Below, one piece after another: positions 7,365 to 32,035 of a stretch of 33,216 nt of DNA (position 1 is the first letter of the stretch; each line of letters opens with the position of its first letter). The translations under genes were made by a program, and so were the position numbers. This DNA comes from Deltaproteobacteria bacterium HGW-Deltaproteobacteria-3 (GTDB lineage: Bacteria > Desulfobacterota > Desulfobulbia > Desulfobulbales > Desulfurivibrionaceae): positions 1 to 33,216 of the forward strand of contig PHAW01000025.1 of NCBI GenBank assembly GCA_002841785.1. The letters run 5' to 3'. The notes beneath the pieces are model-generated. The model saw only the letters and a program-made list of their open reading frames with translations, searched no databases and had not been told where the DNA came from.

Positions 7365-9101
7365 TTATCCTTGGTTGCCTGGGTGAGAATCCCCGGTGAT
7401 AAGCCGTTCCATGTCGTCAACAAATTCCTTCATTTGGAGGGATTGGGCGTTGAGCTCCTCGGAAGCGGCCGCCGATTCCTCGGAAGTGGCCGCATTCTGT
7501 TGCGTCACCACATCCAACTCCGAGATGGCTTTATTGATCTGGACGATTCCGGATGCCTGTTCTTCCGTTGCCTTACGGATATGGCCGATAAGTCCACTGA
7601 CCTCGACCACGCTGGCCGCGGCCTCCTGAAAAACGTTACTGGTGTGAGCGACAAACTCCGATCCGGTTCGGACGCGGGCGACTGTTTCTTCGATAAGTTG
7701 GGCAGTATCCTTGGCCGCGGCGGCGGAACGTTGGGCCAGGTTGCGGACTTCCTCGGCGACCACCGCGAAACCTGCCCCTGCCTCACCGGCGCGGGCGGCC
7801 TCCACTGCGGCATTTAAGGCCAGCAGATTGGTTTGAAAGGCAATCTCGTCGATGGTTTTGATAATCCGTGAGGTCTGTTCGCTGGACTGTGATATTTCTT
7901 CCATGGAACGGGTGAGCTGCTCCATGGCGGAGCCGGCGTTACCGATGAGGTTGTCGGCCTTACGGACATGGTCGTCTGCGTTTCGGGTATGCTCTTCGCC
8001 CTGTTTTACCATGGCGGTGATCTCTTCCATGGTGGCGGAGGTTTCTTCCAAAGCGGCGGCCTGTTCCGAGGCGCCTTCCGCCAGGGTCTGACTGGTGGCG
8101 GAAACCTCGCTTGAAGCGGAAGCCACCTGCGCCGCGCCCTCGCTCAGGCCGAGGCTGATCTGGTGCAGGGGCGTAACCAGGGAGCGGACAATGAGAAAAA
8201 CGAGGCCTGCGGTGAGGGTCGTGCTGAAGATGAGGATGCCGAGGTTGATCATGCCCAGCCGTTTGACCGGAGCGTACATTTCCGAGTCGGGGGCGGTGGT
8301 AGCCACGATCCAGCCTGTTTCCGGGACGGTCTGGAAACCGACCAGCTTGTCGATGCCTTTAAAGGTGTAATGAATAAGCCCCTGGCGCTGGGCCAGCATC
8401 TCGCGGCCAAAATCAAACTGGCTCAGGTCGAGCTTGAGAATTTTATCCTTCTCCGGATAGGCGAGCATTTTCCCGGTTGAGTCAATGAGGTAGGCATAGC
8501 CGGAGGTGCCGATTCTGGCTGGATCGACAAAGCTTGCATTGCAGCTTGCCAGGTCGACCACGCCCAGGAGCGCTCCGGCAACCTTTCCGTTGGTCTTGAT
8601 AGGAGCAGAGATGACAAAAACAGGTTTTCCCGATCCTTTGCTGAGAATCACCTCGGAGATTACCTCCCTGCCGGACATGGAATCCTTAAAGTAGGGGCGG
8701 TCGGCGACATGCATGGTGCCGACGTGCTCGGGCAGGGATGAGGCGATAACGGTGCCGCTCTGGTCGGCGATGGCAATAAATTCATAAAAGTCCGACATGC
8801 GTTGCAGTTCGGTCAACTTAGCGTTGGCTCGATGGGCAGCGCTACTGTCGTCGGCCCCAGCAAGAAGGAGCCCACTAAAAATAGGGTCCGTGCTGTTGCC
8901 GCAGATGTCGAGTTTTCGTTCATGCAGCCAGGAGGTAATCTGTTTGGCGATGGAGTTGGAAACCTGGGAGGTCTGTTGGGAGATGCATTCTTTCAAGGCG
9001 GAAGCGGATTTGAAATAAGAGACTGCGCTGATGGTGCCCATACACAGGACAAGGACAACGGTGGTCGGGATCAGAAATCGATTGCGCAAACTGAGCTGCA
9101 T
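7365..9101 (-). CDS. Methyl-accepting chemotaxis protein with periplasmic dCache-type sensor
   Basis: A 578-residue transmembrane chemoreceptor. A first membrane helix (about residues 8-26, [19 protein letters not shown]) is followed by a periplasmic domain of about 240 residues with dCache features, such as [15 protein letters not shown] and [19 protein letters not shown]. The second membrane helix is [19 protein letters not shown]. The cytoplasmic signalling domain contains the conserved tip [20 protein letters not shown] and [16 protein letters not shown], which contacts CheA and CheW. The stretch between helix two and the signalling coiled coil is short, and I cannot recognise a full HAMP domain. 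The ATG at 9101 was chosen over 9113 because GGGGGG sits five bases before it. The ligand is unknown; the gene is single and divergent from the riboswitch-controlled Gate gene. Confidence 0.93.
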
Positions 9102-9306
9102 GACGCCCCCCATTTGTTTGGAATTTTACGTTAGGTGTTTATACCTATATTATTTCTGTTCTTCGTTTATCTCATGGCAGATGCGATTTTGCAATGAGAT
9201 TGACTGCGTTTGCATTGAAAAAGTAGCGGGTGGAAAAACCGAGGAGCTAATGCTGTTAAAGAAGATGGAAGAATGCTGGCAAAGTTTCGCAAAATATGCT
9301 AGAGAA

Positions 9307-9470
9307 CGGTTTCCAAGGTGCTCCATAAGGAGCTTAAACGGGAACCCCGTGCAAATCGGGGACGGGCCCGCCGCTGTAACCGGGGACGCGTTTCGCAAGC
9401 ACGCCACTGTTTTTTTAAATGGGAAGGCGCGAAACAAGGATGAACCGGAAGTCAGAAGACCTGCCTTGAA
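9307..9470 (+). ncRNA. Cobalamin riboswitch 1 (upstream of the Gate-domain membrane protein)
   Basis: An AdoCbl/B12-type riboswitch aptamer. It starts near AAGGTGCT and has the core CGGGAACCCCGTGCAAATC, the conserved CCCGCCGCTGTAACCGGGG segment around 9370, and the B12-box end GAAGTCAGAAGACCTGCC (closing at 9465). A TATGCT hexamer at 9295-9300 is a possible -10 but lacks a good -35. It is followed by two small repeats and a strong terminator (9539-9575), so control by premature termination when B12 is bound is the likely mode. Confidence 0.93.
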
Positions 9471-9472
9471 AA

Positions 9473-9525
9473 ATCATGTTGCATGATCGCCGTGGACAAG
9501 TGATCATGTAATGATCTGCCGTGGA
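9473..9525 (+). repeat. Tandem hairpin-plus-GCCGTGGA repeats in the riboswitch 1 expression platform
   Basis: Two near-direct repeats, 9473-9496 and 9503-9525, each have a small palindrome (ATCATG...CATGAT in the first; ATCATGTAATGAT in the second) followed by GCCGTGGA. They lie between the aptamer and the terminator and may take part in antiterminator formation. Confidence 0.5.
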
Positions 9526-9538
9526 TGAAACAGGGTCT

Positions 9539-9575
9539 CCCCGGATCGAGAAAATCGGTCCGGGGATTTTTTTTT
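9539..9575 (+). terminator. Riboswitch 1 terminator, overlapping the start of the Gate gene
   Basis: An 11-bp stem (one G-T pair), CCCCGGATCGA pairing with TCGGTCCGGGG across a GAAAA loop, followed directly by nine T. The next three bases are the ATG of the membrane protein gene. The GGGGA of the stem is also the only Shine-Dalgarno candidate for that ATG, so the hairpin could block both transcription and translation. Confidence 0.85.
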
Positions 9576-10550
9576 ATGCCGCTGGAACTGCATTTTATCA
9601 CCTCCCTCTGGGCACATTTGCTCTGGCCGTTGGCCAAGATCCTCTTCTGGATGTCCGTGGGATTGATCGCCGCCAATTTCATCGAGGCCCTCAACTGGAC
9701 GCATCGGTTGGCCTCCCTGTCCCGCCCCTTGGTTCGCCTGGGCAGACTTTCCCCCACCTCCGGGGCGAGCTTTTCCATGGCCTTCTTCTCCGGGGTTACC
9801 GCGAATACCATGCTGGCCGAGGCCTACGACAAAGGGCAGTTGAGCAAGCGAGAGTTGGTGCTTGCCAATCTCTTCAACGGATTGCCCCGTTTTTTTCTCC
9901 ATCTGCCCACGGTCTTTTTCCTCACCGCGCCGCTCATTAAAATGGCGGCCTTGCTGTACCTGGCGCTGACTTTTAGCGCGGCAGTGCTGCAAACCGTGTT
10001 GGTGGTGATCGGCGGCAGGTTGCTGCTCTCTCCACTCCAGGAGGTACAGACGGAGATCGCGGGCTTGGTCCGGGAAAAAACCGACTGGCGACAGGCCCTG
10101 GATAAAAGCATCAAAAGGTTTCGCAAAAGGATCAAGGGGCTCCTCTATTTCACCGTGCCCGTGTACATCCTGTTCTACTTCCTGAGCAAACATGGGGTGT
10201 TTGTCTGGCTGGAGAATTTTTTTGCCACCAAGGCCTGGTTTCTTGCCTGGCTCCAGCCGCAAAGCCTCGGCATTGTCATGGCCCATGTCACCGTGGAATT
10301 TTCCGCCGGTCTGGCTGCGGCCGGAGCCCTGCTGGCGGATAATAGCCTCAGTTATAAAGAGGTGGTTCTCGCTCTCTTGGCCGGCAATATTCTTTCCACC
10401 CCGATCCGGGCGGTGCGGCACCAATTCCCCTACTATGTGGGGATCTTTTCCCCGCGACTAGCCCTTGAGCTTGTGGGGGTCAGTCAGGTATTGCGCATGG
10501 GGTCCGTGGTTGCCGTTGGCCTGGTCTATTATTTTATGACCCTTGGTTAG
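9576..10550 (+). CDS. Gate-domain (nucleoside-recognition type) membrane protein under B12 control
   Basis: A polytopic inner-membrane protein of 324 residues made of two related halves, each with Gate-domain-like features. The first contains SGASFSMAFFSGVTANTMLA and LANLFNGLPRFFLHLP; the second contains LLAGNILSTPIRAVRHQFP and GIFSPRLALELVG. About eight hydrophobic segments are visible, with a charged cytoplasmic loop between the halves (about residues 160-190). Its own cobalamin riboswitch and its place just before the cobalamin operon suggest a role in corrinoid, precursor or cobalt transport, but that is inference; the substrate is unknown. I chose the ATG at 9576, since the membrane-protein sequence begins there; the frame is also open from an ATG at 9525, before the terminator hairpin. 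Confidence 0.8.
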   Translation: MPLELHFITSLWAHLLWPLAKILFWMSVGLIAANFIEALNWTHRLASLSRPLVRLGRLSPTSGASFSMAFFSGVTANTMLAEAYDKGQLSKRELVLANLFNGLPRFFLHLPTVFFLTAPLIKMAALLYLALTFSAAVLQTVLVVIGGRLLLSPLQEVQTEIAGLVREKTDWRQALDKSIKRFRKRIKGLLYFTVPVYILFYFLSKHGVFVWLENFFATKAWFLAWLQPQSLGIVMAHVTVEFSAGLAAAGALLADNSLSYKEVVLALLAGNILSTPIRAVRHQFPYYVGIFSPRLALELVGVSQVLRMGSVVAVGLVYYFMTLG

Positions 10551-10629
10551 ATTGAACCCGTATGATTTTCGTGTATTTTGTGAGGTGAATCGCCAGTTTT
10601 TTTGTAGAAACTACAAGTGTGTTGTCAAT

Positions 10630-10800
10630 AAGGCGCCCATTGGGCTTAAAAGGGAATCCCGCGCAAATCGGGAACGGTCCCGCCACTGTAATTTCCTCCT
10701 GCTTCCAGCGCGAAACGGGAATACCGGTTCTCAGGCCACTGCCCTCTGTCAAAAGGGTGGGAAGGCGAACCGGTTTTCAGGAAAAGTCAGGAGACCTGCC
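10630..10800 (+). ncRNA. Cobalamin riboswitch 2 (upstream of the cbiK operon)
   Basis: A second B12 riboswitch aptamer. It starts at AGGCGCCCATTGGGCTT, has the core AGGGAATCCCGCGCAAATC and CGGTCCCGCCACTGTAA, a variable arm at about 10700-10780, and ends in the B12 box AAAGTCAGGAGACCTGCC at 10800. It differs clearly from riboswitches 1 and 3, which resemble each other. It precedes the twelve-gene cobalt and ring-methylation operon and should repress it when cobalamin is plentiful. Confidence 0.93.
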
Positions 10801-10840
10801 TTGTTGATTTTTTTGCTGCAACCTTCGAGGAAAGGTTTCC

Positions 10841-10888
10841 GGCCTTGCGCGCAATGCAGATTACGCAGGGGGGTGCCGTCTTTTTTTT
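10841..10888 (+). terminator. Possible terminator or expression platform of riboswitch 2
   Basis: CCTTGCG (10843-10849) can pair with CGCAGGG (10865-10871), and an outer GGC can pair with GCC (10875-10877); a run of eight T follows at 10881-10888. The stem is imperfect, so translational control is the alternative. Confidence 0.35.
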
Positions 10889-10927
10889 GAAGGGAACTCG
10901 TCAACCTTTTAAAAGATGGAGAAGAAG

Positions 10928-11847
10928 ATGCGTTTGAAAAAAATGTCACACAATGCTGTTTGGTTGCTGGTCGCCCTGTTTCTGGCGCTTGGCGCTATGG
11001 CCATGAAAGTGCTTTGCCCGGCATCCTCAACATCCGGGATCAGGTTCAGGCATCCCTGCCCGGCGTTCCGGTGCGATTGGCCTTCACCTCGAACATCATC
11101 CGGAGGATCTGGCAGGAGCGGCGTAAGGACCCGGCCTATGCGGTGCAGCACCCCGAGGTGCCCACGGAGATCATCAATGTCAAGGGGCCCCTGGCCGCCA
11201 TCGCCGACCTGCAGGACGAGGGCTATGGTTACATCGTTGTCCAGCCGACCCATATCTCCAGCGGGGAGGAGTTTGCCGATCTGGCCTCCTATGTGCAGGG
11301 ATTAAACGCCATTAAGACCGTGAAGAAGCGGAACATGCCGTTCAGGAAGATCCTGATCGGACGGCCTGCCCTGGGAACCCACGGCATCGAGCACGAATAC
11401 CGGCACGATATCGAGCAGGTGGCAGCCGTTTTGGCTCCGGACGTGGAGATGGCCAAAAAGGCCGGGCGGGCGCTGGTCTATTTTGCCCATGGCAATGAGC
11501 ATTATTCCACCGGGGTTTATCTGGAGTTCGAACAGGTGATGCGCAAGCGGTATCCCGGGGTGCGCATCTATGTTACCATGGTCGAGGGCTTTCCGGATAA
11601 CGCCCGTCTTTTCGAGGAACTGGCCGCGGACAAGACCAGGAAGGTGCTGCTCAAGCCCTTCATGACCGTGGCCGGAGATCATGCCAAGAACGACATGGCC
11701 GGACCTGAGCCGGATTCCCTGAAAAGTCAGCTTGAGACACGAGGTGTCAACGTGGCGGCCTCCCTTGTCGGCCTGGGAGAATCCGATGCCTTTGCGGCGA
11801 TCTTTGCCAGGCACATCAAGGATGTCATGAGCGATGAAGGTCTTTAG
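10928..11847 (+). CDS. cbiK: Sirohydrochlorin cobaltochelatase CbiK (exported type), N-terminal reading frame disrupted
   Basis: CbiK inserts cobalt into sirohydrochlorin, the first committed step of the anaerobic cobalamin route. The ATG at 10928 (GGAGAAG upstream) opens a clear signal peptide, KKMSHNAVWLLVALFLALG, as in the periplasmic CbiK of sulfate reducers. The chelatase domain lies in a different frame, open from a TTG at 10960 to the stop at 11847: LNIRDQVQASLPGVPVRLA, then the His segments YFAHGNEHYSTG and FMTVAGDHAKNDMAG, which hold the two metal-site histidines. The first strand with its usual FGTS motif is missing, so about 12-20 residues appear deleted together with a frame change near 11000-11015. 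As read, signal peptide and enzyme are not joined. It is either damaged or mis-assembled. Confidence 0.8.
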
Positions 11848-31732: not shown

Positions 31733-31770
31733 AAAAAAAAATCCCCGGACCGATAAGTATCGATCAGAGG
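31733..31770 (-). terminator. Riboswitch 3 terminator
   Basis: On the minus strand CCTCTGATCGATA pairs with TATCGGTCCGGGG (13 pairs, one mismatch, short loop), followed by nine T. The 3' arm and T run (CGGTCCGGGGATTTTTTTTT) are the same as in the riboswitch 1 terminator. It lies about 155 bases before btuB, so control of the uptake operon is by transcription attenuation. Confidence 0.85.
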
Positions 31771-31840
31771 ATTTCCCGAATTATCCACTGTACCAGCAGC
31801 ACGCCTCACAGTCCACGGGAGGTATGCTATATAGTATCTC

Positions 31841-31995
31841 AAGGCAGGTCTTCTGACTTCCGGTTCGTCCTTGTTTCGCGCCTTCCCGTTCAAAAAAACA
31901 GTGGCTGTATTGCGAAACTCGTCCCCGGTTACAGCGGCGGGCCCGTCCCGGATTTACACCGGGTTCCCTATTAAGCTCTCTTCAGAGCACCTGAG
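31841..31995 (-). ncRNA. Cobalamin riboswitch 3 (upstream of btuB)
   Basis: A B12 riboswitch on the minus strand. It begins with CAGGTGCTCTGAAGAGAGCTT, whose first 20 bases fix the P1-P2 region, continues with GGGAACCCGGTG and CCCGCCGCTGTAACCGGGG, and ends in GAAGTCAGAAGACCTGCC next to 31843. It is nearly the same as riboswitch 1, including the variable arm with its T7 run. It controls btuB and probably the whole uptake operon. Confidence 0.93.
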
Positions 31996-32007
31996 ATATG
32001 AGCGTCA

Positions 32008-32035
32008 AATCTAGCGGATTCCCGATTAAAGTCAA
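32008..32035 (-). promoter_or_regulatory. Sigma-70-type promoter for riboswitch 3 and the uptake operon
   Basis: On the minus strand a TTGACT -35 (32030-32035) and a TAGATT -10 (32008-32013) are separated by 16 bases. Transcription would start near 32001, just before the aptamer, which is exactly where a riboswitch promoter is expected. Confidence 0.6.

Follow-up and report, generated by a model that had tools for sequence, protein, structure and literature searches.

Predicted terminator hairpin of a cobalamin riboswitch directly abutting the start codon of a membrane-protein gene in a deltaproteobacterium

Riboswitch 1 leader and its downstream gene

The window, namely the whole 33,216-nucleotide stretch of contig PHAW01000025.1 from Deltaproteobacteria bacterium HGW-Deltaproteobacteria-3, contains three RF00174 cobalamin riboswitches by covariance-model search (Table 1). 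Riboswitch 1 is a cobalamin riboswitch by its match to RF00174, which covers model positions 1-189 of 189 and reaches 121.6 bits (gathering score 31.5); its binding of a corrinoid is putative. The leader is followed by a predicted terminator hairpin, a T-run and the gene of a membrane protein.

Table 1. Coordinates of the features in the window
Feature	Position	Strand	Basis or remark
Cobalamin riboswitch aptamer (riboswitch 1)	9299-9482	+	RF00174, 121.6 bits, E 2.9e-30
P13/L13 hairpin candidate, CGTGG loop could kiss L5	9483-9507	+	Ortholog alignment, enforced fold
Candidate antiterminator 5' arm (GATCTG 9513-9518, GGA 9523-9525)	9513-9525	+	Would pair with 9538-9547, nascent folds
Predicted intrinsic terminator, hairpin of 12 bp with a GAAAA loop	9538-9566	+	Consensus scan, fold
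GGGGA, SD-like stretch in hairpin 3' arm	9562-9566	+	Duplex and motif scan
T9 run (terminator U-tract), ends at start codon	9567-9575	+	6-9 T in orthologs
Membrane-protein gene, start ATG 9576	9576-10550	+	Weak Gate match, PF07670, 23.0 bits
Cobalamin riboswitch 3 aptamer (comparison copy)	31825-32009	-	RF00174, 123.8 bits
3' terminator arm of riboswitch 3, with its T9	31733-31754	-	22 nt identical to 9554-9575; no start codon there

The hairpin is composed of the arms TCCCCGGATCGA (9538-9549) and TCGGTCCGGGGA (9555-9566) connected by the loop at 9550-9554. The segment 9536-9575 folds with a free energy of -23.9 kcal/mol (z -3.8), which only 1 of 200 shuffled sequences equalled. The consensus scan by itself found five terminator-like sites in 9100-11200, with 4.1 expected. 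In an alignment of 36 distinct family leaders with related terminators, which derive from 38 of 75 riboswitches, compensatory changes occur in two of the ten consensus pairs of the hairpin. Altogether, the models predict an intrinsic terminator after the aptamer of riboswitch 1. The original prediction of a strong hairpin whose T-run ends exactly at an ATG is thus borne out, with T9 directly followed by the ATG at 9576-9578.

The protein read from position 9576 has 324 residues. Its match to the Pfam family Gate is sub-threshold (23.0 bits, cut-off 29.6), so the gene name is tentative; a search of the protein against NCBIfam gave no match. Sequence comparison argues that ATG 9576 is very probably the true start. 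An alternative start at ATG 9525, or at GTG 9521, by which the hairpin would be translated as codons, has some appeal in that the frame from 9525 is open in the window and the orthologs G008, G012 and G007 keep the corresponding ATG in frame. However, the T-run varies in length, so the equivalent of ATG 9525 is in frame in four of the nine same-genus orthologs and out of frame in the other five. Moreover, in G003 a stop codon lies 48 nt upstream of the ATG, with no in-frame start codon between them, and the SD duplexes amount to only -2.8 kcal/mol for 9525 and -1.2 kcal/mol for 9521. The homologues outside the genus also begin close to 9576, most of them having an ATG no more than a few codons away (59 of 62 loci were examined, two of which, L043 and L057, have no ATG in the searched range). 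An upstream start is therefore highly improbable, and both candidates were rejected on frame and SD; the frame comparison across the nine orthologs agrees with the earlier assignment of the start to 9576.

Riboswitch 3 shares its terminator 3' arm and tail with riboswitch 1, and beyond them lies the first ATG that is preceded by a good SD, AGGAGG. Riboswitch 2 (10614-10930) has a weaker and less regular platform, and it may act on translation, as several of its orthologs have no recognised terminator. At one related locus (L142, G001:C93:68500-69600, - strand), the gene is absent, a search for it having given no match; there riboswitch 1, terminator included, is followed after ~65 nt by riboswitch 2, the two forming a tandem pair ahead of a cbiK-like gene.

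Spacing between terminator and start codon among relatives

A search of 58 related genomes found the gene in 39, and nine of these 39 belong to the genus of the window, its own genome included. At eight of these nine loci of the genus, a T-run of 6, 7, 8 or 9 T adjoins the ATG, and the hairpin accordingly ends 6-9 nt from it (9 nt in the window). The ninth locus, G013, carries a 12-nt insert between T-run and ATG, and its gene is still open. The 29-nt hairpin is nearly invariant among these loci. Judged from the alignment, the conservation of the hairpin and of its adjacency to the start is beyond chance.

At the family level, 75 RF00174 matches were found in 27 genomes, and a terminator was recognised behind 66 of them, the remaining nine being dropped. 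The T-run touches a start codon in 11 of the 66 leaders, with the starts chosen automatically and some of them wrong (for example L166, by eye). These 11 comprise the eight leaders of the gene in the genus, in addition to L173, L180 and L181; only in the eight genus leaders was the abutting ATG judged to open the regulated gene. Where other genera of the family carry this gene, the T-run stands 7, 12 and 40 nt from the start (G023, G021 and G018, respectively); a spacing of zero thus characterises one gene in one genus. The original prediction had called this packing unusual, which holds within the family (8 of 66 leaders), but descriptions of this class of arrangement go back to at least 2007 (PMC2258182).

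An ATG after a T-run is in itself not rare, as it occurs in seven of ten loci of another riboswitch group in the same genus. The simple rule that any T-run followed by ATG marks a start was rejected, since the leaders of the L173, L180 and L181 group have a 42-residue ORF about 34 nt further on with its own SD. The abutting ORF is only six codons long in four of the seven orthologs of this group with an abutting ATG, and in the group as a whole that ATG seems not to open the gene. The conserved 42-residue ORF (MKAQKQIISYRRRCNLIGQG...) stands behind a partial RF00174 match (model 47-167) at the loci L004, L173-L177 and L179-L182, and it has its own SD in all ten loci examined.

A pattern search through 257 genomes of the order returned 14 matches in 13 genomes, nine of them being leaders of the gene. 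The other five (L106-L110), from other families of the order, have a similar terminator and a T7-ATG junction, with an ORF of only 13-22 residues.

Ribosome access to the start codon

The GGGGA in the 3' arm of the hairpin had been proposed as the only ribosome-binding candidate. It is indeed the sole SD-like stretch, as the 20 nt upstream of the ATG contain none of AGGA, GGAG, GAGG, AAGG and AGGT, and its computed duplex with the anti-SD tail of 16S rRNA (-5.7 kcal/mol) falls inside the spread seen at other starts of the window. By sequence comparison, however, an SD role of GGGGA is weak, with three results arguing against a dedicated SD. GGGG occupies the same place before the T-run in 31 of the 36 distinct related leaders, mostly far from any start and at a start in only eight of them. 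Outside the genus the gene is SD-poor: an SD core 4-mer precedes 17 of 49 starts (9.5 expected by shuffling), with a mean duplex of -3.5 kcal/mol, as against 42 of 50 starts and -7.7 kcal/mol for the other riboswitch genes of the family, and 46 of 89 and -5.3 kcal/mol for control ORFs from the same loci. These 49 starts are the 59 examined loci minus the seven genus loci and L043, L052 and L057. In addition, the insert of G013 moves GGGG beyond SD range and the gene is kept.

Read-through RNA of the nine orthologs, comprising the platform and 45 nt from the ATG, was folded to predict the state of this region. With the hairpin, the unpaired probability of GGGG is 0.000-0.001 in all nine. Upon masking the 5' arm it rises to 0.03-0.73 across the orthologs and is only 0.04 in the window sequence, in which GGGG stays largely paired; the model thus gives no clean release of an SD. 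Since in the genus the start codon of the gene immediately follows the U-tract, hairpin and tail occupy the place where the ribosome would land, and in these models the hairpin would cover the landing site.

We propose that the leader is probably a transcription-terminating cobalamin riboswitch whose hairpin also covers the ribosome landing site; termination, ligand control and the effect on translation are all inferred. Once the hairpin forms, RNA polymerase would be released in the U-tract just ahead of the ATG. On any read-through RNA that retains the hairpin, initiation would be hindered, either because GGGGA is hidden or because a stable structure stands beside the AUG. With the 5' arm held elsewhere, the U-run and the AUG region would be single-stranded and the gene readable.

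It is quite possible, nevertheless, that the leader works by transcription attenuation only, with an SD-less start, a spacer lost by drift, and GGGG as merely the G-rich side of the stem. The GGGG shared by terminators, the poor SDs of the gene outside the genus and the displaced GGGG of G013 all speak for such a reading. Against it stands the adjacency kept in eight of nine genus loci; moreover, a stable stem ending 6-9 nt from the AUG would be likely to impede ribosomes whether or not there is an SD. A dual platform that dispenses with an SD and uses the U-tract as an SD-independent landing site, and on which B12 may turn the switch on, is unlikely as a whole; its B12-on option arises from the model described below, in which P13 and antiterminator do not compete. 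If the SD-less part were true, formation of the hairpin would take away the ribosome entry site along with the polymerase. The case also cautions against assuming that an SD-like GGGG within a terminator stem acts as an SD.

Possible ligand coupling and comparison with known systems

Between aptamer and terminator, the P13/L13 candidate is conserved in nine orthologs, and changes in its 3' arm mostly keep the pairing, as seen in the alignment by eye. By analogy with the corrinoid riboswitches treated in PMC10653944, an L5-L13 role is inferred for 9483-9507. Further downstream, the candidate antiterminator strand appears in many predicted nascent folds. Over 34 leaders its duplex does not stand out from shuffled sequence (at the median, 233.5 of the 500 shuffles were as good), and for this reason it is kept as a candidate only. 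A near-repeat, ATGATC-GCCGTGGAC / ATGATCTGCCGTGGAT, lies at 9483-9497 and 9511-9526, with one copy falling within P13/L13 and its counterpart within the candidate antiterminator strand.

P13 and the antiterminator do not overlap. In folds with P13 enforced and the aptamer left out, computed for 33 of the 38 leaders after five with no recognised P13 were dropped, the antiterminator probability increased by more than 0.1 in 11 leaders and decreased in two, so in this model P13 does not oppose the antiterminator. This compatibility would fit a switch in which B12 binding stabilises P13 and frees the ATGATC copy at 9511-9516, such that the antiterminator forms and the gene is turned on. To our knowledge, nearly all cobalamin riboswitches repress, which counts against B12 activation; the scheme also relies on a secondary-structure model that omits the aptamer and on an antiterminator that the shuffles do not support. 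We thus consider it improbable, even with the precedent of an activating corrinoid riboswitch documented in PMC10653944.

The P. megaterium metE corrinoid riboswitch (PMC10653944) resembles riboswitch 1 in its cobalamin aptamer, L13 hairpin and terminator-type platform. In metE the 3' side of P13 is itself the antiterminator strand, whereas in riboswitch 1 the candidate strand comes after P13. The predicted folds accordingly do not fit a repressing platform of the metE type, on which the 3' side of P13 would pair with the 5' terminator arm and thereby exclude P13; in these folds the antiterminator strand is 3' of P13 and compatible with it.

The layout as a whole has known counterparts. In the dual expression platform of Barrick and Breaker (2007), as set out in PMC2258182, the terminator is so near the gene that its 3' side contains the ribosome-binding site, and 10 nt is the cut-off for the distance between hairpin and start codon; the same paper notes that transcription attenuation may be over-represented in delta/epsilon-Proteobacteria. 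The distances in the window and the eight genus loci fall within this cut-off, and riboswitch 1 has GGGGA, a candidate ribosome-binding site, in the 3' side of its hairpin. It differs from the platform so described in that GGGGA would be a weak SD, the gene family is SD-poor and the tail touches the ATG.

The experimental precedent for dual control, by analogy, is the attenuator of pT181 repC, for which PMC5435934 reports measured dual control, with repression rising from 85% to 98%. Both cases have a single terminator hairpin with an SD-like stretch in its 3' half. Particular to pT181 repC, in the same account, are AGGAG, a near-canonical SD placed 12 nt from the start, the control by antisense RNA and the location on a plasmid.

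Compared with these systems, as far as the cited texts describe them, a terminator set against a start codon is a known, uncommon design, and the present case, with its candidate ribosome-binding site, probably joins the dual class. It would add a well-conserved deltaproteobacterial case to the riboswitches with dual transcriptional and translational control, and its relatives, with 0, 7, 12 and 40 nt from terminator to start, constitute a natural spacing series for the translational part.
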